A DNA stretch of 33,692 bases from a virus. Of the stretch, positions 5,471 through 32,990 are shown one piece after another (the stretch's first letter is position 1; each line of letters opens with the position of its first letter). The DNA lies in the IMG/VR virus record IMGVR_UViG_3300005913_000035, positions 1-33,692 of that record; one strand, written 5' to 3'. The notes under the pieces were generated by a model. That model was not told the origin of the DNA. It saw only the letters and a list, made by a program, of their open reading frames with translations, and made no database searches. The position numbers and the translations under genes were made by a program.

Positions 5471-8425
5471 ATGGCTCCATACAACCCACTACAATCAATA
5501 AGCATGTGAAGGATCAACAGTGAATCCCTTAGATCTAATAACCCAGATAAGGTTCAAGATCAGAAAAGAAGAGATGCACAGAGATCTATGTCCGATAGAA
5601 TCACAACAGGTATTACTAACACTGGATCCATTAAGTCTCCAGTGTCTTCCCCTGTTAGATCTAACGTGCAAGATGTTATGACTCCTGCTACAATTAGAGA
5701 CCCTAGATCACCTAGACCATCTAACATGCCATTGATTGCTGGTAATGTATGAGTACAGCCACAAAAGTCAAACCTAATAACAAAAGATAAACTAAGGACG
5801 GTATTAGAGCAAGTAGATCCAAGTAGAAGACATATAGTACTTAGAGGTATAGTAGCTAAATGATGAGTTATTGAGTGATATAATGATCCACAATCTCAGA
5901 TAACCCAATCACCACAAAGAGCAGAGCCACAGTTCCCACTAGGTACAGCACCTAAGCAACAATGATTAAAATGATCTTTGGTTTCATGAGAGGAGCAGTA
6001 TTCAGTCAATCCATCATTTAAGTTTGACTCAGTAAAAGACCAATGACCTAATGCACTTAAGCTTATATGAAACGTACCATCTAGTGCTGCAAATGTTTGA
6101 GCTAACTTGCTACAGCTAGCAAACCCAAGCAACCGATGAAATATCATTAAAGGAGCTGGTAGTGTAATAGCATGAGCTGCAGTAAATATTGCTAAGTGAG
6201 CGTGAAAACTGGTAAATAGCATGAGCGAAGAAGAATATAATAGAGAGATATGACGTGTTGTTGGCTCTAAGTCTTCTTTCTTACAAAAGATAAACAACTC
6301 TGAAGCTGTTGCAGACCAGATGGGTGAAGTCCTTGCAAAGAGAGCTGGTTTCTCTAATTGAGAGTTTGATAGTCAGTTGTTAGCTAAGACAATTACAGAA
6401 GATCCTGTATGAGTTATATCAGACATAGCCTTTATATTAGAGTGAGGATGACTTGCTTGAGCGAAAGCACTATGATGATTAGCTTCTAAATGATCTAATC
6501 TAGCAAAGGCTTGAGACAGGCTATGAGACTTATGAAAACTAGCTTGATCTATAGATCCATACTCAATAATCCCAAAAGTAGCAGTATGAGCAGCGAAGGC
6601 AGCAAGCAAGTGAGCTCTTAAAGTATGATCTGCTATCTGAGAGGCAGGAGTTTGATTATTAGGCAAAGCAACAGGTACATCAGCAGATACAATCAAGGAA
6701 GTATATAGAACAGCTTGAAGCAAGTGAACAGTGGACGCATTAAGGTGAAGAACCAACGATACTTCTATACTAGAGGCAGTAAAATCATGAGTAGAAGATC
6801 TAAGAGAGCAAAGATCTATCTTGTACTGAAAGGATTTTGATATTCTTAAGAACAACACTAGTAAAATAAATATATCTCCAGTTAAGAAGGCGATCGTAAC
6901 AGAACTAACAGACTGACTCAATGTTAAGATAGTAGACTGAGAATTAGATTTCAGTAAGTCAAAGATTACATCTACAGCATCTCAAAAAGAGATAGTAAAT
7001 ATGTATGATGATATTACTAAACGAGATGACCTTAGTCCTCAATGATTAGATATACTAAAACAAAGAGTCTCAGATTACTGGAGAGGTACAGCAGAGGCTT
7101 CAAAAGCGGATAGAGTGTCAACAATGTTGTCAAAGCAGATTAAGTCACTAATCATCAATAAAGTACCAGAGTACGCAAGGATGACAGCTAAGTATGAAGA
7201 GATGAGTATATTGATCAGAGATATACAGTGAGCGTTAGGCTTATGAAATAAAAAAGCAACTACAACTGCGATAACAAAGCTTAAATGAGCGTTAAGACAG
7301 AACCAAGAGTTTAGACAGGCTATGATTAGGGAGATAGAGAAGTATGGTTGAGATAACATTATGTGACAGATCGCATGATCTCAGATGAACGAGTTATTAC
7401 CAAGATGACTTGCTTGAGTATGAGCATGAATCCTATGAATAGGTATATGATCACTAATAAATCCTCAATTCTTATTCTGACTGGCTGCATCAAGTCCAAG
7501 AATAATAGGAGAGATTGCGAACGCTCTAGGCGTAGCTACTAAAGAACTACAATCATATATGGATAATGTAAAGTGATTCTACAAGAGACCTAAGGTTGTT
7601 AACAGCGTACCATCTTGAGTTAGACAAGCACTACCTGAAGATACAAAAACAAACATAGGTTCAATTAAAAGCCCAATAGTAACACCGCAGACTAGGTCAG
7701 TGAATAATATTATAGAGAGATGAACAGCAAAAAAGCCATGAACAAGTAGAACAAACCCTATAGACAATATTAATAAGAAAGAAAAGGCGTTGAAATCCCT
7801 TAAATCAGAGGCTAAAAGTACTGTAAGAGATGTTATTAAGTCTAAGGGTACAATTGTGCCTAAATCACCTGAAATTACTAAACTATCTACAGAAGCTAAG
7901 AAGTATAAAACTGCTGATGAGTTTGTGAATAGCTTAGAAAATAACTGAGATATAATATACCATGGGACTAATAAAAAGTTTGACACACTTGATGTTTGAA
8001 AAAGTAAAATATGAGACGCTATATTCTTCTCTACTAAGAGATGATTTGCTGGTAAATATGCTTGAGACAAATGAAGAGTCATAAAATGATATTTAGATAA
8101 AAATTCAAAAGTAATAGACTTTACAAATAAGTGAGAAATGGATAAATTTAAGAATGAAATCTCAAAGAATTACCCATGACTAGTATATGTGATAGAAAAT
8201 AAACTACAACCTGCTCTTGATTCTTGAAACCGATGATTTATTGAGCTTGAAGTGTTCTGAATAAAGAAAGAATTAAAGAAGCTATGATATGATTGATATA
8301 TAGTAAGAGAAAGTTGATTACCATGATTTGAGGAAAATACAAAAAATATAGCACTCTTTAACACTGATGTTATTAAGACAGAAGCTCAACTACGTAAGAT
8401 CCGAGAAGAAGCAAACAACAAATAA
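5471..8425 (+). CDS. Large internal virion protein with C-terminal ADP-ribosyltransferase-like domain
   Basis: This 984-residue protein starts two bases after the previous TAG. The central part (about 200-680) is helical, with Gly/Ala-rich hydrophobic stretches near residues 645-690 (GLAGVGAGILGIGIG and onward) that could insert into a membrane. The last 150 residues match the ART layout of phage PolyVal-type polyproteins. H831 lies in IIYHGTNKKF, followed by a DAIFFSTKRGFAGKYAG block, then KKLGYDGYIVRE, and a closing block (IALFNTDVIKTEAQL) where this family typically has its VvF...ikSa ending. I infer that the protein is packaged and ejected, with the ART domain acting on a host target after entry. 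Glycine is very often TGA here, unlike in the capsid gene. An alternative is a structural protein with a degenerate ART fold. Confidence 0.7.
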
Positions 8426-8453: not shown

Positions 8454-9989
8454 ATGACTTTAAAAGAACAAGCATTAAAAGAATTGGCTACAAGAAGACT
8501 TGAGGAGATACACGCACCACAAAGGGATTCTCTTCTTGACTTCATACAATTGTATTTCAAGAATGAGAAGCCAAAGGGAATAACTAATTTCCATATATCA
8601 CCCTTCCATAAAGTGATAGCTGATAGGTTAGAGAAAGTAATCAAGTGAGAGATTACAAGGCTGATTATAAACATACCTCCGTGACACTGAAAGACAGAGC
8701 TAATCACTAAGAGCTTCCCAGTGCATGCAATGGGTAATAATCCTTACCTACAGGTAATAGCGACAGGATACTCTACAACTCTTACTCAGGGATTCTCAAG
8801 TGAAGCAAAGGACTACTACAAGTCAGATACATTTAAGTCTGTATTCCCTAGAAGTAATTGAATCAATAGATCGCAAGATACTAAGGAGCACTGGAAGACA
8901 GCTGAGTGATGATCGTATTACGCAACATGATTTGACTGATCTATCACTGGTAAAAGATCTAATATATTTATTATCGATGATCCTATTAAGCCAAAAGAAG
9001 CAGACAGGTCTGACGTTGTTAGAGATTGAGTAAATAACTTATTCTTAACTACTGTACCTAGTAGACTATTTAACCCAGAAAAGGATGCGATTATTATTAT
9101 AATGCAGAGAACGCACGATAATGATCTATGTGGATACCTAATAGATAGGATGAACACTGGTTGATCTGAGTACGAAGTAATAAGTATGCCAGCAATAGCT
9201 GATCATGATGAAGTATGGGAGACTGAGAAATATTGAACCATCACTAGAGCAAAGGGAGAAGCACTGGACGAGAATAGATTTCCATTATCTACACTAGATA
9301 TATTGAAGAGCGATATGATGAACTGAGACTGATGAATGTCTGCACGGTCTACCCAGTATCAACAAGAGCCGATCAACAAAGAGACACAAGAGTTCCATGA
9401 GGAATGGTTTAAGTATCATGGAGAGTGAACAGAGAACAAGACACCAACATCACTAAGGATATTTACATCAGTAGATCCTGCCTTCAAAAAGTGACAACAT
9501 AACGATCAGACAAGTATTATGACTGTTTGACTTTCATCAGACCAAGTATATATATTAGAATATACGGCAGGCAAGTATTCAGCTGTTGAATTACAAGACA
9601 AGATTATCTACCATGTACAGAAGTGGAATCCAGAGAAAGTAGGTATTGAGGCTTTTCAAGCACAAACTATGATCGCACAACATCTTAGACTAGAACTGCA
9701 GAGAAGAAACATCTATGCAAGTATAGAAGAGATAAAACAAACTGGTGACAAACTGACCAAGATTAGAAAGCTAATAGCACCGTACAGAAGAGGACAGGTA
9801 TATCATAAGCACTGAATGGATTGACTAGAGACAGAACTCAAGAGATTTCCAAGAGGTAAACATGACGATATTATTGACTCACTGCAAATGGTATATGATA
9901 TGATATACTTAACACCGTGAACGAAGGTTAAAGTAGAATATAAGTTTGAATTCGATAGTAATGGTATCCCCTACACAATATGAAGCTAA
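8454..9989 (+). CDS. terL: Terminase large subunit (ATPase-nuclease)
   Basis: This 511-residue protein is the DNA-packaging motor. Walker A is PGHGKTE at residues 76-82, and both of its glycines are encoded by TGA. The Walker B acidic pair lies in FIIDDP (D175, D176). The RNase H-like nuclease half has SVDPAF (D341) and a C-terminal HDDIID (D471). Length and motif order are normal for TerL. The last residues are encoded TGA AGC TAA, and the portal ATG begins inside this TGA, giving a 10-base overlap. No small terminase subunit is recognisable nearby. It precedes portal, scaffold and capsid in the standard head order. The assignment is secure from the motifs. Confidence 0.95.
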
Positions 9990-12670: not shown

Positions 12671-13894
12671 ATGGCTAATTCAGTACAACCAACTTTCCCA
12701 GAGATCTGGGCAAAGAAAATGCAGATGACTTTTAAAAAGGAGAACCAAGCGGAAGTATTCGCTGACACTTCTTACAATTCATCCCTAAAATCAGGAGACA
12801 CTCTCCACAGACAACTAGGTAATATCGATCCTAACGGTGCTCCAGGAGTACACGTAAGAGGTGCAGATATCGCTGAATCTTTCTACTCAGCTAGCGATGA
12901 GACTATGTCAATTGACAAAGAGTTCTCTACTCGTTACTTTATCGAAGGTTTTGACGAAATTCAATCAGACATTTCACTCGCAGCTTACTACGGTGAACAG
13001 TTCGGAGGACAGATGAAAGTACAAATCGATGCTACTGTATTCGGTGAAACACTAAACTCAGCTTCTATCGTAGATGCAGGAGATCTTGGTGGTACAGGTG
13101 GACAAGGTATCACACTATCTAGTTCTAATGTAATCAACGTTGTTGCAGCAGTAAGAAAGAAATTTAAGAAACTTAATGTTTCTACTGATAACATGAAGGG
13201 TGCAATCTCTCCAGAGTTCGTAGAATTCTTGACACTATACGGTGCAGGTAGAGATACAACAATGGGTGACGATGTAAACCGCAGAGGGTTCTTCGGTAAG
13301 TTCAATGGTATTAGTCTTTATGAGACCAACAATACTACTGGAACTGCTGTACTCGCTATGGCTACACAACCTACTAACGGTGATCCAATCACTCTAGCAG
13401 GACAAACATTTACTGCAGTATCTACTATCGGTACAACTGCTGGTAACTACAAGATCGGAGCTAACGTTGATGTTACAAGAGCTACTCTTACAGCATTGAT
13501 TAATAATCCAGCTACAACTAGCACAACTCAGGTTGCACTAGGTACATCTACATCTGAAGTTGTTAAATTATTTGCAGCTAGAATTTCAGCGGTAAATGAC
13601 GACTCAGCAAACACAATGACAGTTACACACAAGGGTGCTGGTACTATCGTAGTATCTGAAACACTAACTGATGGAACTGACACATGGACAGCTACAGCTC
13701 AGAAACAACACTGCCTATTCGTAGCAGGAAGTGGACCAGCTCTAGTCGTACAACAGACACCAAAAGTAAACGTCGTAGAATCTGAAGCTAGAAATGGCTC
13801 ATTTACTAAGATGGCTTGTTTATTTGGAGTGAAAACATTCTCTGATCAGGCAAAAATGATGACTGACGTACAACTTAACTCTAGTACTTACTAG
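12671..13894 (+). CDS. Major capsid protein
   Basis: This 407-residue protein, directly after the scaffold gene, is followed by a strong intrinsic terminator, as expected for a highly expressed coat gene. Residues 1-230 and 345-407 read as an HK97-fold coat protein (for example the SIDKEFSTRYFIEGFDE block near residue 78). Residues about 233-345 look like an inserted beta-rich domain of a kind common in phage structural proteins (DPITLAGQTFTAV ... GTIVVSETLTDG). All 37 glycine codons are GGN and none is TGA, in sharp contrast to its neighbours. It ends in TAG. The assignment as coat protein is based on synteny, size and composition. Confidence 0.9.
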   Translation: MANSVQPTFPEIWAKKMQMTFKKENQAEVFADTSYNSSLKSGDTLHRQLGNIDPNGAPGVHVRGADIAESFYSASDETMSIDKEFSTRYFIEGFDEIQSDISLAAYYGEQFGGQMKVQIDATVFGETLNSASIVDAGDLGGTGGQGITLSSSNVINVVAAVRKKFKKLNVSTDNMKGAISPEFVEFLTLYGAGRDTTMGDDVNRRGFFGKFNGISLYETNNTTGTAVLAMATQPTNGDPITLAGQTFTAVSTIGTTAGNYKIGANVDVTRATLTALINNPATTSTTQVALGTSTSEVVKLFAARISAVNDDSANTMTVTHKGAGTIVVSETLTDGTDTWTATAQKQHCLFVAGSGPALVVQQTPKVNVVESEARNGSFTKMACLFGVKTFSDQAKMMTDVQLNSSTY

Positions 13895-14334: not shown

Positions 14335-16764
14335 ATGCCTAAGATGACCTCTGCGGAGTATATAAAAGAACTTGCGAGTTCTCCATTAACAAGGGAACAA
14401 CTAAACAAGCTATTGGATAGAAACAATATTAGCTATGAGTTGTGAGAACTTGACAATTTCTGATACGCTGTTCTTAATTGATTTAAGGGCAAAAGATCAG
14501 ATTTTTCTGCACAAAGAGAATGAGAGTACATGACTTGACTATCTAAATGATTGAGTCAGAAAGTTAAAGATATTGATAAGAAGATTGTAAGCTTCGAATC
14601 TACTAAGAAAGAGTTGGAGAAGATGCCTTGAAAGGTGCTTGCAACCGTTGACGCTGACCTTAAGAGCGTCAGAGAAGATCAAAAGGTATATAACGCCAAG
14701 ACATTACAAAACCTTGCTAAAAAGGCAGAGAAAAAACACGGTCATGATATGTCAGAAATCAAAGGTATAGACAAACAGTTTTCCAACCTAGAAACTAAGA
14801 TTAGTGATCGTCCAACAAGAGATGAAGTGTCCGACGCTATGAAAAAGAACTTTGTTACTAAAGATAATACTTTCACAAAAGAAGAAACTAGAAGTTATGT
14901 TAAAAGCAAACTTAATAAGATAGTTATACCATGAAAGTCATGAGGATCTGGTTGAGGAGGGACATGAGATGTAACAGCTGCAGCAGTCTTAGTGGATAAC
15001 TCTATTATTAGAGGTGATGGTGGTGCTAAGTGAGTACAAGGCAGTGGTGCAACTATAGACGACTCATGAAACATAACATCGAATAATATCAATCAAACAG
15101 TTGTTATTGGAGCAAGTCCAGTGTTTACTCTTGCGAATCAAACTATTGACGATAGTGAACTTATTGTTGCAGATACTACTAATGCACAGACTTTCGTTAA
15201 TAAGGTAGACCATGCCATATTGAAATCTAAGGGAACAGGAGTAAATACTACTTACGTTGCAACTGCAGCAGTAGGAGGAACAACCTTTGATATTCCAGAC
15301 GTTTTTACAGAAATTTATAGTGATGAAGGATATTTTTATATTCATTATTTAGGGTCAACTGGAACAACAGTAGCTAATTTAAATGCTGCATCTACATTTG
15401 TTTTTTTAGATAAGACAGGGGCTTTAGATCAACAAACAACAACACCTACAAGACAAGATTTAACTAGAAAAGTTTTTCTAATTAGAATTGCGGTAAATAC
15501 AGCAAATAATACTATTTTAGGTTTTGAATATTTAAACAACCCTACAGGTAACTATACTAATACTATCAGGGATTTATATTCATATCTTTTAGCTCAAGGA
15601 GTACCATTTAAAAAAGATTTAGTTGTTACGGGTAGAGCGGGAGATTTAGGGTTTGATATTTCGTCAGGAAGTTTAATGGAACTTGGGGGTACAGGAGATA
15701 TTTTTAATCCAAACATTAAAGATTTTGACGCTGTAGCTAATGCAGAATTTGCCTTAGTTCAAAGTGCTTCAGAAAATTCTACTGGAAATACAAACCTCCC
15801 AAAGTTTTGGGACAATTCAGGATCACTTACAGCTCTTGGTTCTACTACTTTAGTGGGTCATAGACTGTATAGATTTAGTAGTGGTAATCTTACAATTCAA
15901 TACGGTCAGGGCAATTATGCTAATATGGTTCTTGCTAAGGCAGGCGTACTAACAGAGGATTACGATCTAAACCCTGGGCTTGTAGACGCTACCTTCTTAG
16001 GTCGGTGGTTTATCGAATCTACAGCCACTAATACATCAGGGACAGTAAAGACAGCATTTGTTGAATACACTATTGGAGTACAGGGCGGAGTATCAAATTC
16101 CTTATCAGGTGCATTACTTAAGGGTAATAACTTGTCAGACTTACTAGATGTAAGTGCAGCTAAGACTAACTTGTCTTTAGATAATGTGGATAACACAAGT
16201 GATGCTAATAAGCCTGTAAGTACAGCAGGTCAAACAGCTCTTAATCTAAAAGCTAATATTGCATCACCTACGTTCACATGAACAGTGTCAGGCATTACAA
16301 AAGCTATGGTCTGACTTACTAGTGTTGATGATACAAGTGATTCAACTAAAAACGCAGCAAGTGTAACGCTAACAAACAAGACAATCTCTTGAGCTAGCAA
16401 CACAATCACAGTGGATGGTGTTAATGAAGTGGGATTTAGAATAATCCCTCAAAAGGTAAAAGCTGAAGACTATACATTAATATTAGAGGATAGTGCGACA
16501 TCTATTCATCACCCTAGTATAGACACAAGTGCAAGAACATATACAGTTCCAGCTAACGCAAGTGTAGCATATCCGATTGGTACTGCTCTTACTTTTACCA
16601 ACGATACAAGTGGTTGAGTAATCACTATCGCAATCACAAGTGATGTTATGATATTGGGCTGAGTAGGCACAACATGAAGTAGAACACTGGCAGCAAGTAG
16701 CATGGCAACATGCATAAAGATGACAGCAACAAGACGGATTATAAGCTGACCTTGACTTACTTAA
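14335..16764 (+). CDS. Long tail fibre protein
   Basis: This 809-residue protein has an N-terminal helical attachment region, a probable coiled coil (about 75-205), and a Gly-rich hinge near 203-212 written largely with TGA. A beta-rich body follows, then a classical fibre repeat near 620-670 (NLSLDNVDNTSDANKPVST, then SPTFTGTVSGITKAM and LTSVDDTSDSTKNAAS), and a small C-terminal tip. It is expected to bind the host surface. Residues 246-648 (15070-16278) contain 36 glycines but no TGA codon, while both flanks use TGA, and the first half of that block is visibly richer in TTT/TTA. This suggests a module acquired from a standard-code source. The fibre assignment is strong; the receptor is unknown. 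Confidence 0.85.
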
Positions 16765-16778
16765 TTAAATTACTAACT

Positions 16779-17360
16779 ATGGCAGTAATACAACAATTAT
16801 TAGCATCATATTGATGAGTACCAAAGACATACGCTACTTGGAATCCAAGCGATAAAAGTTCTTCTATAAATTTATCTTGATGAAACTTGAACGCTTCTAG
16901 TTCTAACTGATCAACATGGCAGTCTGCTAGAGCTACATTGTGAAAAACTTCATGAAAATGGTATTGGGAAGTAACTGCTTTGTCGATAAACACATCTAAT
17001 GACTTAATCATGGTGTGAGTTGCGACCACTGCAGCGAGCCTTACTAATGCTTATATATGATTATCAAGTAATTGATGGTCTTGGTATAATATATCACAAA
17101 AATTTAACTGATCTAGTTCTGCTTATTGAACCAATCGGACAAGCGGAGATGTTATATGAATAGCTGTAGATATATGAGGCAATAGTATTGAGTTTTATAA
17201 AAACAATATTTCTGCTTGAGTAGCATTTACTAATCTTTCTTGAACCATATATCCAGCTATGTCAATAATAAGAACTGTGGCAAATTTAACTACTAACTTT
17301 GGAGCTACTACAATGACATATACAGCACCATTATGATATAATCAATGATTTTATAATTAA
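16779..17360 (+). CDS. SPRY-domain fibre-associated protein
   Basis: This 193-residue protein is almost entirely one SPRY/concanavalin-like beta-sandwich. It contains KWYWEVTALS, then MVGVATT, SSNGWSWYN, GDVIGIAVDIGGNSIEFYKN and a closing TNFGATTMTYTAP. SPRY domains occur in phage tail-fibre tips and accessory proteins and mediate binding. Eighteen of its 21 glycine codons are TGA, the opposite extreme from the capsid gene. The conserved G-D-x-I-G core supports UGA=Gly. It lies directly after the long fibre and probably forms part of the adsorption apparatus. The domain call is confident; the role is inferred from position. Confidence 0.8.
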
Positions 17361-17371
17361 ACCCTTTAAAC

Positions 17372-17722
17372 ATGAAAATCAAAATTGAAGCAGAAATAAC
17401 AGAAGAAGATCTAATGATCCTAGCTATAAGGAAAGGACGAACAGAAAAGACAACAAAATACGAGACAACTGAAGAGCCTGCACTTGATGAGGACGGAGAA
17501 CCTATCCTTGATGAGGACGGAGAGCCTACAACTAACACAGTAAGCACACCTGTAGAGGTTAAAAGTAAAGAACCAAAATTATTTATTGAGGACTTATATA
17601 GTGAGGTAATAATTACTGACTCAGCTAAGATATTCACTGAGTATAGAACACAAGAACTTAGAGAGCAGATTAAGCAAATAGAAAAGGCAGTAAAAGATTC
17701 AGTAGTTCTATGATTTAGCTAA
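17372..17722 (+). CDS. Small acidic protein with a duplicated DEDGEP motif, unknown function
   Basis: This 116-residue protein starts 11 bases after the SPRY gene. It opens MKIKIEAEITEEDL, has two tandem copies of the heptad LDEDGEP near residues 38-51, and ends with a helical segment (RTQELREQIKQIEKAV). The last codons are TGA TTT AGC TAA, so the true end lies three residues past the position a standard-code reading would give. The stop overlaps the next ATG as TAATG, implying coupling with the DUF1353 gene. No fold or function is recognised; tail-fibre assembly or chaperone roles would fit the context but are unproven. Confidence 0.6.
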
Positions 17723-18090
17723 TGTCACAATTCACCAAGTTCACATCTATCCAACCCTTACCCAAGGAACGTATGCGGATCACCACAGCACCACTAGTTT
17801 ATCATGTATGACGTGAAGACAGTGACGAGGTGATAACTGTTCCTACTGGTTATGAGTTCGATTGAGCCAGTGTACCTATGGTATTTGGCATGGTGATACA
17901 GAGGGCAGAACCTCAAACAATACTAGCAGCTTGCCTACACGATTACTTATACACTGAGTGAAGAAGATATACTCTAAGCGAGACAGATTATATATTCTAT
18001 GAAGCACTAAGATGCTTTAATCCTAAGCGGAAATCAATGGTAATGTATATAGGTGTAAGGTTATGATGACGAGTATATCGATATAAATAA
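17722..18090 (+). CDS. DUF1353 family protein
   Basis: This 122-residue protein matches the phage DUF1353 layout: VPTGYEFDGASVP near residue 41, LAACLHDYLYTEGRR in the middle, a helical SETDYIFYEALR segment, and a closing MVMYIGVRLGGRVYRY. DUF1353 genes are common near tail or lysis genes, but their function is not established. Three conserved glycines (in FDGASVP and VRLGG) are TGA. It is coupled to the preceding gene by TAATG and followed by a hairpin terminator that overlaps its stop, so it probably closes the main structural transcript. Confidence 0.8.
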
Positions 18091-18991: not shown

Positions 18992-19513
18992 ATGGATAAA
19001 GCAGTTTTCTTAGACACAGAAACAGGATGATTGAATGACAGAAAACACTCACTACTGACGATTGGCTATACAGTAACCAACAACCAACTGAGTAAAATCT
19101 TAACTAAAGAATACAAAGTACCCATCAAAGGAGAAGTATCCCAAGACGCTTTGAATATTAATTGACTAGACGTAGAGAACTGGGAGTCAGAGAGAACAGT
19201 TGCTGAGGTGGTCAAAGAGATCATCAAAGATGCTGAGGGTGATGAAGTGTCTCTATACTGACATAACATACACTTTGATCTGTGATTTATAAAGACTCAC
19301 GACGAGGAGGCATACAACGAACTGATGAGTATCTTTGGTAGGAGAATAGTTGACACAAAAGCTCTAATACAAGATATGAAGAACCGCTGACTATATGATG
19401 GATCTACTAGCATGCATAGGTTCGTATGACAGGACTGAGGCAAACACAACGCAGCAGAAGACACACTCTTGAATATAGAGTTACTGAAGAAATATTACAA
19501 GATGATAACTTAG
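18992..19513 (+). CDS. DEDDh 3'-5' exonuclease (DnaQ/RNase T-like)
   Basis: This 173-residue protein has all three exonuclease motifs. Exo I is FLDTETGG (D8, E10), Exo II is GHNIHFDLGF (D96), and Exo III is HNAAEDTL (H152, D157). It therefore belongs to the DEDDh superfamily with DnaQ and RNase T. The second glycine of the Exo I motif is TGA, direct support for UGA=Gly. The length is normal for a stand-alone proofreading-type exonuclease. No DNA polymerase is seen in the window, so it may act on host polymerase products, during recombination, or in nucleotide recycling. It ends in TAG and is followed by a 23-base A/T-rich gap. Confidence 0.9.
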
Positions 19514-20027: not shown

Positions 20028-20864
20028 ATGGAAGGAGGAGCATTAGAGAAGTACAATGAGAGCGACTGGAGAATGTGAGGAATGATTGACCGGGATAAAG
20101 TGCCAACAATTACACCTACACTCGTCGAGCTAGATCAAAACGAGTATCAACGCAACACTTGTACTGTATATGCTTCTATGGCTTCCTATGTTGCATCTAC
20201 TGGTAATCATATACCTGAGATACATAGATATGACATCGTAGACCAATCTATCGATAGGTGACTAGATATAAGTATCTGACGATGGGTAAGTATGGCGGTC
20301 AAACTTATATACGACCAGTTTGACGATGTATCATACGTAAGCTGTAAGATATGATCTGATGACTTCTGGGAAGCAATCAAAAGGTGATACCACTTAGTCG
20401 CATGATATAGTTGAAATAAAGTATATAACGATGACCGTGATGATGATGGATCGGTAGCAACTAATGATTGGGGTAAGTGAACCTATGGACACTGCATTAG
20501 ATTTGCCAAACAACCTTGAACCGATCTCATTATTGTAGACAACTACAAGCAGAGAGAAACAAACATATACAAGCTACCAGATCTTGCTGAGAAAATAAAA
20601 TCTTGAAACATGTTTTATAATTGCTACTTTTATATACCTAAGATAATTATACCTATGAGTAATTTACCAGAACACGGCACGTTTTTTTCAACACCCTTGA
20701 GATTAGAAGTATTGGAAGCACGGAAGACAGAACTATCAGTACATATCGATAATGGTTGAAAGCCAACATATAGCATCTATACATTTGATAATCCTACTGA
20801 CGAGACTGACATTATTGGTAAGATGCAAACTGAATTAGGTTTTTTAAGAAACTGACTAATCTAA
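20028..20864 (+). CDS. Papain-like cysteine peptidase/amidase-like protein
   Basis: This 278-residue protein, the last on the plus arm, contains a Q-x3-C pair (Q41, C45 in YQRNTCTVYASMASY), a later G-H-C motif (H155 in GTYGHCIRF) and an Asp-Asn following a strand (D171, N172 in LIIVDNYKQ). This order and spacing match papain-like enzymes such as C39/C1-type peptidases and some cell-wall amidases. It has no signal peptide. It could mature virion proteins, cleave host peptidoglycan cross-links or modify host proteins. The C-terminal 60 residues are not recognised. Near the end the frame passes one TGA before TAA. The fold call is motif-based and moderately sure. Confidence 0.65.
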
Positions 20865-20870
20865 TAACAA

Positions 20871-20900
20871 AAAGCCGTCATATAAAGACGGTTTTCTTGT
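20871..20900. terminator. Bidirectional terminator between the converging arms
   Basis: CCGTC (20875-20879) and GACGG (20887-20891) form a stem around ATATAAA. TTTTCTT follows on the plus strand. On the minus strand the same stem is followed by CTTTTTGTT. It can therefore terminate both arms, whose last genes stop at 20864 (plus) and 20961 (minus). Confidence 0.75.
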
Positions 20901-25314: not shown

Positions 25315-25354
25315 CATACCCACTAATGTAGGTATGGTGTAGATAGGTTACTTA
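25315..25354 (-). promoter_or_regulatory. Conserved AAGTAACCTATC element plus hairpin, copy 2
   Basis: Bases 25333-25354 are identical to 25033-25054. The hairpin here is CATACC/GGTATG (25315-25336). The stop codon of the upstream duplicated-domain gene (25348-25350) lies inside the repeat. Confidence 0.55.
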
Positions 25355-26055
25355 TTAGGATTACTAAACAAATTCCTATGCTGTAGTATGGTTTTGTTTA
25401 TTTCTTTGTTTCTGTTTTTGTTTGTTTCTAGTTCTTCTTGTAATTGATCAATCTTGACTCAATCAATAGTGTCGGCAGTCCGTGTTTTATTGTTATAGTT
25501 ACATGACCGCTCTGGTGATGATAACTTAGTCTGACTCTTCTTTTGCTTGGTTCGTTCTTCTCGTTGGTCTAGGGTTATAAGTTTTAGGTTGTTTCCAGAT
25601 ATTTTTGGATTAGAACTAATAAAAGTTCAATCGCATCCATTAGTTCATTCATATCAATAATATGAGTGGCTGTATCACCAAGTTACATCGTAAAACTCAT
25701 TAAACCAAAAATGAAACAGGTCTCGTCTTTTGTCATCTGTTTTTTCAATAACCCAATATTGTGGGAAACCTAATTTTTCGTGTTCAGTTGTTGTTTCTTG
25801 TTCATCTACTAAAGCCCACTCTTCTCGTTGATCTAGGGTAATTAGTGTTGGGTTGTTCTTAAATCTTTCTATATACTCATGGCAATTAGTTCAACCGTAC
25901 CCATCAGTTCATTCATATCAATAATATACATGTCCGATTCACCAGCTTACATCGTAATACTCACTAAACCAAGATTTAAACAAGTATCGCCTTGGATCAT
26001 CTTTTTCCTCAATTACCCAATACTTGGGAAATCATAATTCTTCATGCTTAGTCAT
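25348..26055 (-). CDS. Protein with a tandemly duplicated domain, unknown function
   Basis: This 235-residue protein is built of two copies of an 85-residue unit. Unit one starts HEELGFPKYWVIEEKDDPRR and unit two HEKLGFPQYWVIEKTDDKRR. Both continue with (S/T)WG...H.YYGYEGT(D/N)G and end LITLDQREE. A Lys/Asn-rich tail and a C-terminal coiled coil (about residues 200-225) follow. In both units the YYGYEGT glycines are TGA, so the duplication is invisible in standard-code frames. The repeats differ at about a third of positions, so the duplication is not recent. Aromatic and charged residues dominate; no catalytic motif is recognised. Confidence 0.65.
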
Positions 26056-26861: not shown

Positions 26862-27188
26862 TTACATATCATTTACTAGACTTGCTATAGCAATATCAAC
26901 CATGTCTCACTTACCCTGTCAGTCTCTAGCTTGGTAATAGGTCTTGCTGATTTGTTTTTCGTTAGACTCAGCCTTAATTAATTCTTCTTTCCGTTCTTGG
27001 TAGGTGTCTCGATCTTCTTTATGCTTCACTATAAACAAAGCCTCTGCTTTTACCTTACTGTTTCATTCGATTACATACTTAGCCTCTAGCTCCCTGCGGA
27101 CTTTATTAGCCTTGTTAAAACTAACAGCAACCTCAGCAAGGTGACGCTCTGTAGTAGTTCGGTATCATAGTAGATCGTCTAGTGTCAT
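26862..27188 (-). CDS. Small helical protein between exonuclease and SSB, unknown function
   Basis: This 108-residue protein begins MTLDDLLGYRTTTERHLAEV and is largely a charged coiled coil (residues 15-90), ending MVDIAIASLVNDM. Its ATG lies inside the TGA glycine codon near the end of the YqaJ gene, with a 10-base overlap, so translation is coupled. Placement between recombination exonuclease and SSB suggests a recombination accessory such as a loader or exonuclease partner, but no motif is recognised. Four TGA glycines are present. Confidence 0.6.
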
Positions 27189-27778
27189 CTGGAGATATAT
27201 TTATTAATAATTGTTTTAATCTGACTTTTTCATGATTCAAGTCATTCTTCTAGTTTTTCTTGTGACTTAGGGTCAATGTGTACTCTCTTAATCCGCATAG
27301 ACTCGTTGTAGTTTGGATTGTAAGCAACGAAGTCGCATCGTTGGCGTCCAGTCACATACATTTGCATTTGCATCTGTCGTACGTACTTTGTATCTATCTT
27401 ACCACTAAGTAACAATTCAAAATGTATCTTATCGCTTTGACACTTAATCTCTATCAATCAATCATCTCATATAAGTCAATCAGGACTGCATCAAGTGTAC
27501 TCGTCATACTCAACAAATCAAACCTCTACAACCTGATTACTTGTTTCAAGCTCGTACATACCTCTTGCTAGAGGTTCAAGTTCGTTGCCTCTGTCTGTGT
27601 GTGCATTACTATATTGCTCTTTTTCTGCACTGCTATAGTGTTCCGATAGCATCTCGCTTATATATGTTTCTAATCATTTTCAGTTAGATCATATAGCTTG
27701 TGCATGGCTTGCAGTCATTTTTAGTTGTCTGACTGCAAATCGTTCTGGAGTTCACTGATCTATGTTGTGGATTTTCAT
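27179..27778 (-). CDS. YqaJ/lambda-type recombination exonuclease
   Basis: This 199-residue protein has the motifs of the PD-(D/E)XK YqaJ family. These are RGNELEPLAR (E66/E68), YTGCSPDGL (D100), the strand GLIEIKCQS (E110, K112) and QMQMQMYVTG (Q135). These enzymes chew one strand of dsDNA to expose ssDNA for annealing. The neighbouring ERF-family protein is the expected partner, so the two form a Red-like recombination pair. It ends TGA CAC TAG, with the next gene's ATG inside the TGA. The start overlaps the ERF gene by 19 bases in the same ATGA fashion. Confidence 0.9.
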
Positions 27779-29938: not shown

Positions 29939-31198
29939 TTATTTACTCTGACTAGCTAGTTTCCCTGTTATTTTTGCACCACTCACATGGTATGTATAAG
30001 ATCACAATCATCATCATGATCTATTTTTCAATATATCAATCTCAATTCACGTTATCTTACTATTTCCATCTTCTTCTTTGTTTAATGAAAATACATTGTC
30101 TGCATCTTGTTCCAATTCTCAGCAGTCTTTTAAGTGTTCTAGTCCTATACTACCACTCTTAGCTCACTCCCTTGATACTTGTGCCAATGCTATTATATGG
30201 ATTCATAGCTCATTGCATAGTCTTTTCATTCTATTTGATATTTTGCCGATCTCATACGCCCTATTCTGTGGCTTCTCTGAGGTTGTGGCGAGCTGTATGT
30301 AATCTATTATTATAACCTTTATGTTATCACGATGATAGGCTGTATATATCTTGTGATAAATTGTGTAGTCGATAAGTGATGCGTCTGATATATCTAAGTA
30401 CTCTGGTATATAAGCGTAGTCATCTACTCAGCTCTTAGCGATCATATCCATTATCTGTATGCCCTTCTTGCTCTCAAAATGGTACGGAGCTATTCAGTAT
30501 CTGATAGACAGAAACCTTTGTAGTACTTCTTCTTTTGACATCTCACCGCTAAGCATCAAAGACTTAATTCATTGATCCATCAGGTTACTCATTATGTTAA
30601 CCGCTGTGAGTGTCTTTCCTACTCAAGGTCTAGCCATTATAATGGTTAGCTTTCAAGGCTTTAATCAAAATGTCTTAGAGTCTATCTCCTTGTATCCAAA
30701 CAATCATATCCTATTCTCTACTGTCCCTGCTTTCTCTAGTAGGTTATTAAGTGATTCCTCAATAGATAGATCGGTACTGGATTGATACATTAGCTCTCAT
30801 ATCTTGTTATATGATACACTCATTATATCATCAACCTTATCTAAGGTTCACAGCTCTATCATAGATCATAGCTTCTTGATCTCCCTTAGTTGTCGGATCT
30901 CCTTAAGTTTTTGAACATAATCTGATAGTCAATGTGTTCACCATACCTTAACTGATATACTTAGAATAGACTCTTGATAGTCAGCTCACAACTCCGCCAC
31001 TAACATCGTTATATCAATTGTCTTCCTTAGACTCATAAGCTTAGTAATCGTAGAATAGATAATCTTATTCCTACTACTAGTGAAGTAATGATCTTTTATA
31101 TCAGCTTGATATATAGAGTCAGGTGACTGTATAATACAAGATAGTACAGATTCTTCTACTTCCATATTCACTATTTGTTTGTTTATTTCGTTGATCAT
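29939..31198 (-). CDS. dnaB: Replicative DNA helicase DnaB
   Basis: This 419-residue protein has an N-terminal helical domain (1-100) as in DnaB and a RecA-type C-terminal domain. That domain has Walker A ARPGVGKT (residues 189-196, first glycine TGA), Walker B VIIIDYIQL (D299), ALAQVSREG, the conserved LKDCGELEQDADNV and KNRSGGGLG near the end. It unwinds DNA at the phage fork and is loaded by the overlapping upstream initiator protein. No separate primase or polymerase is present, so host enzymes are probably used. Its ATG lies within a TGA glycine codon of the initiator gene (16-base overlap). Length and motif order are normal. Confidence 0.95.
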
Positions 31199-32354: not shown

Positions 32355-32990
32355 TTATACAAATAAACTTACGGTCGTAGTTTCTAACCTTTTATTGATT
32401 ATGTCTATATACTTAGGCTCTTTCTCTATTAAGATACAATCTCTGCCTAGTTCTTTACAAGCTACTCAAGTAGTTCAAGATCAAGAAAAGCAGTCTAATA
32501 TAATGTCTCATTTATTACTATAATCGTTTATTATGTTCTTCATTAACCTTACTGGTTTCTGTGTTGGGTGTAGTCTTTGATCTCAGTCATTTATAAATCA
32601 TTGTTGAACAATAAAGTATTTATTTACAGACTTTTTAGGTATATTTGTTCGTGCAAGTTCACATTTACCAAAGGGGTTGTCAAAAGCTATCTCTCAAACC
32701 TTATCCCGAACAATCCAATGTCAGTTTACTGGAAGCTTGTCAGTAAAAAAGTTTCATCAAAATATAACAACATTTTTTCACACCCTTAAAATTTCTTCAA
32801 AGTATTCTTTACTGGGTGTAAACTTATCCCAATCATCTATATAGTGTCTGTCTGTCTTGCTTGATCAAAATCATCATACTCATTTCCAAGCATCTATCCC
32901 ATAAGGTGGATCAGTAAGAATCAGATCAACACTGTTGTCATCCATACCCCTCATTACTTCAAGACAGTCTCATTGTATTACCTGTATCAT
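32355..32990 (-). CDS. Beta-class DNA methyltransferase (N6-adenine or N4-cytosine)
   Basis: This 211-residue protein has motif IV, TDPPYG (D27-Y30), preceding motif I, DCFSGSGTTG (FSGSG at 168-172). A HPTQKP block (141-146) lies before motif I and IEKEPKYIDI after it. This order is that of beta-class amino-methyltransferases. The three motif I glycines are all TGA, which fixes UGA=Gly beyond doubt. No cognate restriction enzyme is seen, so it is probably an orphan enzyme protecting phage DNA or modifying regulatory sites. The target-recognition region is short. The DPPY tetrad favours adenine as the substrate. Confidence 0.92.

Follow-up and report, generated by a model that had tools for sequence, protein, structure and literature searches.

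A tailed-phage contig that reads UGA as glycine and CGA and CGG as tryptophan, very probably in the genetic code of Absconditabacteria

Gene content and coding density of the contig

IMGVR_UViG_3300005913_000035 is a virus record of IMG/VR, classed as linear, whose full 33,692 bases were analysed here (hereafter the window). Genes for the terminase large subunit (TerL), portal, scaffold and major capsid proteins, recognised by PHROG matches, place it among the tailed phages (Caudoviricetes). The coding density of the contig is 0.84 under code 25 as against 0.16 under code 11; table 11 yields only 11 open reading frames (ORFs) of at least 100 amino acids, mostly on the strand opposite the real genes. 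Codons were counted in a hand-picked set of 46 ORFs, which hold 433 in-frame TGA and 365 GGN codons, together with 46 CGA and 20 CGG, that is, 66 CGR codons. The features on which the analysis draws are listed below, where G001 is the nearest relative, IMGVR_UViG_3300027983_000045 (TerL 91% identical after masking).

8454 to 9989, + strand: TerL (PHROG 38, E 1.5e-98), with 21 in-frame TGA and a CGG at codon 298
8679 to 8699, + strand: Walker A stretch of TerL, CCG TGA CAC TGA AAG ACA GAG (P-G-H-G-K-T-E), read directly
12671 to 13894, + strand: major capsid protein (MCP; PHROG 267), with no TGA, CGA or CGG
16776 to 17360, + strand: SPRY-domain protein (PF00622), start not settled, with TGA at 18 of 21 glycines, one CGG, codon 121, and TGG as Trp
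17722 to 18090, + strand: DUF1353 protein (PF07087), with CGG19, CGG103, CGA117 and CGA120
18992 to 19513, + strand: DEDDh exonuclease (PF00929), its DTETGG written with GGA TGA
20028 to 20864, + strand: protein of unknown family, 92% identical in G001, with CGG22 and CGG232
27179 to 27778, - strand: YqaJ-like recombinase/exonuclease (PF09588), with CGA13, CGA134, CGA147 and CGG162
29939 to 31198, - strand: DnaB-like replicative helicase (PF03796/PF00772, PHROG 19), with 21 TGA
32355 to 32990, - strand: DNA methyltransferase (MTase; PF01555), with 16 TGA, CGG95 and CGA114

The GC and AT skews both flip sign near 21 kb (position 20,900), at the point where gene orientation changes from + to -. 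The product of the gene at 5471–8425 has 984 residues and carries at its C terminus an ADP-ribosyltransferase domain (PF18760) of the kind found in polyvalent proteins. TerL had no homologue in the PDB, an MCP search among known phages gave one weak match, and scans of viral contigs returned no matches for the DUF1353 protein or the protein encoded at 25348–26055.

TGA is read as glycine

We scored codon meanings with a Codetta-like profile score on alignments in which TGA, CGA and CGG were masked as X, the full standard code being applied to bacterial loci only; because of this masking, the outcome is independent of the assumed code. The alignments drew on 31 related IMG/VR loci found by TerL, plus longer stretches of several of those records, on 80 bacterial terminase loci, mostly from named standard-code bacteria, and, for YqaJ, MTase and DnaB, on another 40 viral loci. 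As a control, 59 other sense codons were scored in the same way; 55 came out with their table 11 meaning and four did not, namely CGC, CGT and TCC (3–5 sites each) and GTG (Ile/Val).

At 126 sites, glycine was favoured for TGA over the next residue (Asn) by log10 57.2 and over Trp by log10 130, in agreement with the initial annotation, which had read TGA as glycine. Where the window has TGA in columns at least 80% conserved among outside homologues, the conserved residue is glycine in 19 of 21. Between the window and G001, 53 sites pair TGA with GGN and none pairs it with TGG. Homology spans in-frame TGAs in TerL, MTase, DnaB, SPRY, the exonuclease, YqaJ and ERF. Genome-wide, TGA makes up 0.54 of glycine codons, about half in replication and structural genes alike; the most significant excess in the window is in the gene at 5471–8425 (74 of 98 glycines), and the tail-fibre-like gene at 14335–16764 is low in TGA (21 of 76).

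The individual motifs put forward initially differ in weight. The MTase motif I was described as having TGA at three invariant glycines; all three codons are indeed TGA (170, 172 and 175), and the invariance holds for the first two columns (Gly in 69/70 and 70/70), codon 175 being mostly Leu (50) in homologues. The Walker A motif of TerL had been presented as proof from two invariant glycines. Its TGA codons (77 and 79) are where they were said to be; the glycines, however, are not invariant, since in 82 standard-code homologues column 77 is Arg in every one and column 79 is Leu in 64 and Gly in 7. Among the phage relatives, column 77 is mostly Arg with some GGA or TGA, and column 79 holds Gly, TGA, Leu, Thr or Ser. 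Because the homologue columns are Arg and Leu, we rejected Walker A as proof: glycine is compatible with these positions and not demanded by them. Judged by the alignments, it is the weakest of the examples first given, and other sites, such as MTase motif I, carry the case. The DTETGG motif of the exonuclease has the GGA TGA codons attributed to it, and TGG was confirmed as Trp (26 sites, log10 odds 30.1). All 46 ORFs end in TAA (36) or TAG (10), as had been pointed out, but with TGA counted as sense no other outcome was possible, so the real evidence for a sense TGA is the homology that extends across it.

A rival explanation takes TGA as Trp, as in code 4, or as a stop with regulated readthrough in a host of standard code; geNomad calls code 4 for 7.5% of predicted Patescibacteria viruses in a virome survey (PMC12807717). 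The margin of glycine over Trp in the masked test and the lack of any TGA–TGG exchange with G001 refute TGA as Trp, and the even spread of TGA over replication and structural genes argues against both forms of this explanation, to which we give practically no credence. A role of TGA as a glycine sense codon throughout the contig is thus strongly supported by homology.

CGA and CGG are read as tryptophan

The initial annotation had named the code as table 25. The glycine assignment of that table agrees with the window, whereas its reading of CGA and CGG as Arg does not. Residues of outside homologues that face window CGA are Trp in 40 cases and Arg in 3; those facing CGG are Trp in 23, Phe in 71 and Arg in none. 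With both codons pooled, the masked test favoured Trp over Arg by log10 13.3. For CGA alone, Trp was the best residue by log10 5.9 and led Arg by log10 8.7. For CGG alone, Trp led Arg by log10 4.6 but stood behind Phe by log10 1.4, because Phe prevails in one of the four columns that could be scored; taken by itself, CGG as Trp is therefore the weaker of the two assignments. Across the clade, CGA is Trp rather than Arg by log10 140.7 at 81 sites, an exponent that is overstated since the sites of relatives are not independent. The same test applied to standard-code relatives returned CGA as Arg.

Codon exchanges with G001 point the same way. Window TGG faces CGA or CGG in G001 six times and window CGR faces TGG five times (CGG alone: four TGG, no Arg), whereas exchanges of CGR with AGA, AGG, CGT or CGC number zero in either direction, against 135 conserved Arg (Fisher 5e-5 and 3e-4). 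This absence counts against CGA as Arg, because a change from AGA to CGA would then be silent and common. With nine further relatives assigned CGA as Trp, a CGR of the relative lies opposite a TGG of the window in 31 cases and opposite an Arg of the window in none (P 3e-23).

Individual columns agree with these totals. Trp reaches at least 80% in four CGR columns, and no strongly conserved Arg column holds a CGR. MTase columns 95 (CGG) and 114 (CGA) are each Trp in 10/11 other phages that have no in-frame TGA. In YqaJ, columns 13 and 147 (both CGA) are Trp in 12/12, and in 10/10 each among phages without in-frame TGA; CGA134 is likewise read as Trp, and CGG162 lies in a variable column. TerL column 298 (CGG) is F, Y or W in 80/81 outside homologues and F or Y in 25/26 phage relatives, never Arg in either. 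G001 has TGG at the position of DUF1353 codon 19 and at codons 22 and 232 of the 20028–20864 protein, all CGG in the window. Reading CGR as Trp raised the Pfam score of YqaJ from 78.2 to 87.0 bits and that of DUF1353 from 62.5 to 65.6 bits. On the other side, the MTase score did not rise (108.0 to 107.6), one window CGA faces AGA in the relative G011, and DnaB CGA102 faces Arg three times. For the PDB homologues of MTase, the displayed aligned stretches exclude the CGR sites. The protein encoded at 25348–26055 contains an internal duplication; its alignment sets CGA168 in the second copy opposite a TGG in the first, a pairing that hints at CGA as Trp.

Two readings that keep CGR as Arg were weighed against these data. 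The first is plain table 25 in a phage of a Gracilibacteria host that keeps CGR as Arg; published work assigns this code to such phages (PMC10746230, PMC13059738), and some relatives of the window do fit it, with CGA as Arg over Trp by log10 16 in G005, L006, G008 and L020 pooled. For the window itself, the exchanges with G001 (none with an unambiguous Arg codon, 11 with TGG) and the masked homologues strongly disfavour it, and we consider it very improbable. The second takes the Trp columns as ordinary Trp-to-Arg substitutions, TGG and CGG being one transition apart. It would have the conserved Trp columns of MTase and YqaJ all mutated while no CGR falls in a strongly conserved Arg column; moreover, 20 CGR sites are kept as CGR between the window and G001, and the pattern is absent in standard-code relatives. 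We regard such substitutions as an even less credible explanation than plain table 25.

By the combined evidence of homologues and exchanges, the code of the window is TGA as Gly and CGA and CGG as Trp. Since both CGR codons also encode Trp, translation with table 25 mistranslates about 66 residues; an annotation of this kind puts Arg where these phages make Trp, at about 0.6% of residues.

Decoding machinery and probable host

Neither ARAGORN nor Rfam found a tRNA in the window, although this linear contig may not hold the whole genome, in which case a tRNA could lie beyond it. No release factor or aminoacyl-tRNA synthetase was recognised in the contig either, and with all three undetected, decoding is most likely carried out by the host, whose machinery the phage would presumably use. 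UGA would then be decoded by a host tRNA-Gly(UCA) and CGA and CGG by Trp-charged host tRNAs, in a host that does not terminate at UGA.

The same three reassignments were described for bacterial genomes: according to Shulgina & Eddy (2021, PMC8629427), Absconditabacteria read UGA as Gly and CGA and CGG as Trp, and the window matches that code at both CGA and CGG. We propose that the contig represents a tailed phage, either entire or in large part, in the Absconditabacteria code with UAA and UAG as stops. That it is a tailed phage written in this code and relying on host decoding is, in our assessment, very probable. NCBI now lists this three-codon code separately, as table 37 (Absconditabacterales).

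The host originally proposed was Absconditabacteria/SR1 or Gracilibacteria. Because the literature ties CGA and CGG as Trp to Absconditabacteria, we narrow it to this group, an inference from the code alone. With the code as proposed, the host could instead be Gracilibacteria-like, from a lineage in which CGA is Trp as well. Some Gracilibacteria are reported to read CGG as Trp and others as Arg (PMC8629427), and the two groups have been united in one class (PMC13092985); CGA as Trp, however, was reported in the screen of PMC8629427 for Absconditabacteria only, and we consider a Gracilibacteria-like host unlikely. Terminase similarity in genome contigs was also tried as a route to the host and was set aside, as the matches, at about 30% identity, were confined to Alphaproteobacteria and other distant homologues with the standard code. 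For phages with UGA as Gly, the CGA/CGG pair provides a sign of the host that needs nothing but the phage genome, and it separates likely Absconditabacteria phages from the others.

A tRNA-like element that ARAGORN missed (Rfam tRNA, 41.3 bits) was observed in G001 (L032:11955–12028, - strand). Its 10-nt anticodon loop, AAUCAGUAGC, contains UCA, its acceptor stem is lengthened to about 18 bp, and the element folds far better than shuffled sequences (z -6.2); none was found in the window. In the relative G011, in which CGA is Trp, a weak tRNA-like match of 33.6 bits (L040:598–668, + strand) folds no better than shuffles.

Comparison with described phages

Phages and prophages that use code 25 are established for Absconditabacteria and Gracilibacteria (Liu et al, 2023, PMC10746230). 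The main text of that study contains no mention of CGA, CGG or arginine, whereas in the window both of these codons are also reassigned. RSA-ATP1, a 39-kb phage of an Absconditicoccaceae epibiont (PMC13059738), resembles the window in being tailed and in reading UGA as Gly; it differs in encoding four tRNAs, including tRNA-Gly(TCA), where the window has none. It was treated as code 25, and the main text of its description mentions neither CGA nor tryptophan. Reassignment of a sense codon is known in phages, PMC8629427 giving AGG as Met in phages of Bacilli. We found no report of CGA or CGG as Trp in a phage in the literature searched, a set that leaves most subscription journals and preprints outside its scope and is not proof of priority.

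Code states among related phages

The related phages show three to four code states. The standard code, with CGA as Arg, is found in G007 and L008, and by TerL in G006/L009. TGA is Gly and CGA Arg in G005 and G008, and weakly so in L006/L007 and L020. TGA is Gly and CGA Trp in the window, G001, L003, L011, G010, G011, G013, L021, L022 and L031, and weakly in L025. L012 and L014 may form a further class with TGA as Gly, CGG as Trp and CGA rare, which is tentative because it rests on one or two sites.

The standard-code phages (L008, L009/G006 and L010/G007) share the terminase family (TerL 48–51% identical) and the MCP family of the window; unlike the window, they have no TGA in TerL and read CGA as Arg. 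G007 has hardly any in-frame TGA and no TGA stops in 15 genes. In this it is like the code-neutral phages of Liu et al (PMC10746230), but a host reading CGA as Trp would misread its Arg codons. For a TerL tree, the three codons were again masked. In it, the standard-code rows form one clade (support 100/99) and ten CGA-as-Trp rows lie on one side of a branch with weak support (50/73). All code groups together require 5 changes, compared with 17 when shuffled; the tree gives no direction of code change because its backbone is poorly supported.

The capsid gene differs from the rest of the window in its codons. None of its 37 glycines is TGA (P = 2.7e-13 against the genome fraction), and because CGA and CGG are missing as well, its translation is the same whether code 11, code 25 or the triple code is used. 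In the 13 relatives with TGA as Gly and a long enough MCP match, the TGA fraction of MCP is 0 to 0.30 and always below that of their own TerL (0.28 to 0.68). This avoidance points to selection on decoding in the most expressed gene: the capsid gene would probably be the most highly expressed, and slower or less accurate decoding of the reassigned codons would most simply account for their absence.

On the simplest reading, each phage of the family presumably carries the code of its own host. We give an even chance to the further proposal that one family moved repeatedly between hosts of different codes, rewriting sense and stop codons each time while keeping a capsid gene that has almost no reassigned codons and can be read under all of these codes. 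The codes involved would be the standard code, UGA as Gly, UGA as Gly with CGG as Trp, and UGA as Gly with both CGA and CGG as Trp. Compared with Liu et al (2023, PMC10746230), the present analysis adds relatives in other codes within the same family. Three or four code states within one terminase family make the crossing of a genetic-code barrier by viruses testable, here for a barrier that involves sense codons, where it does not suffice to avoid a stop codon.

The TerL gene of L003 (L003:419–1891) has a mosaic appearance, its C-terminal half being nearly identical to that of the window and its N-terminal half resembling those of L021 and L022, which suggests recombination within the gene.
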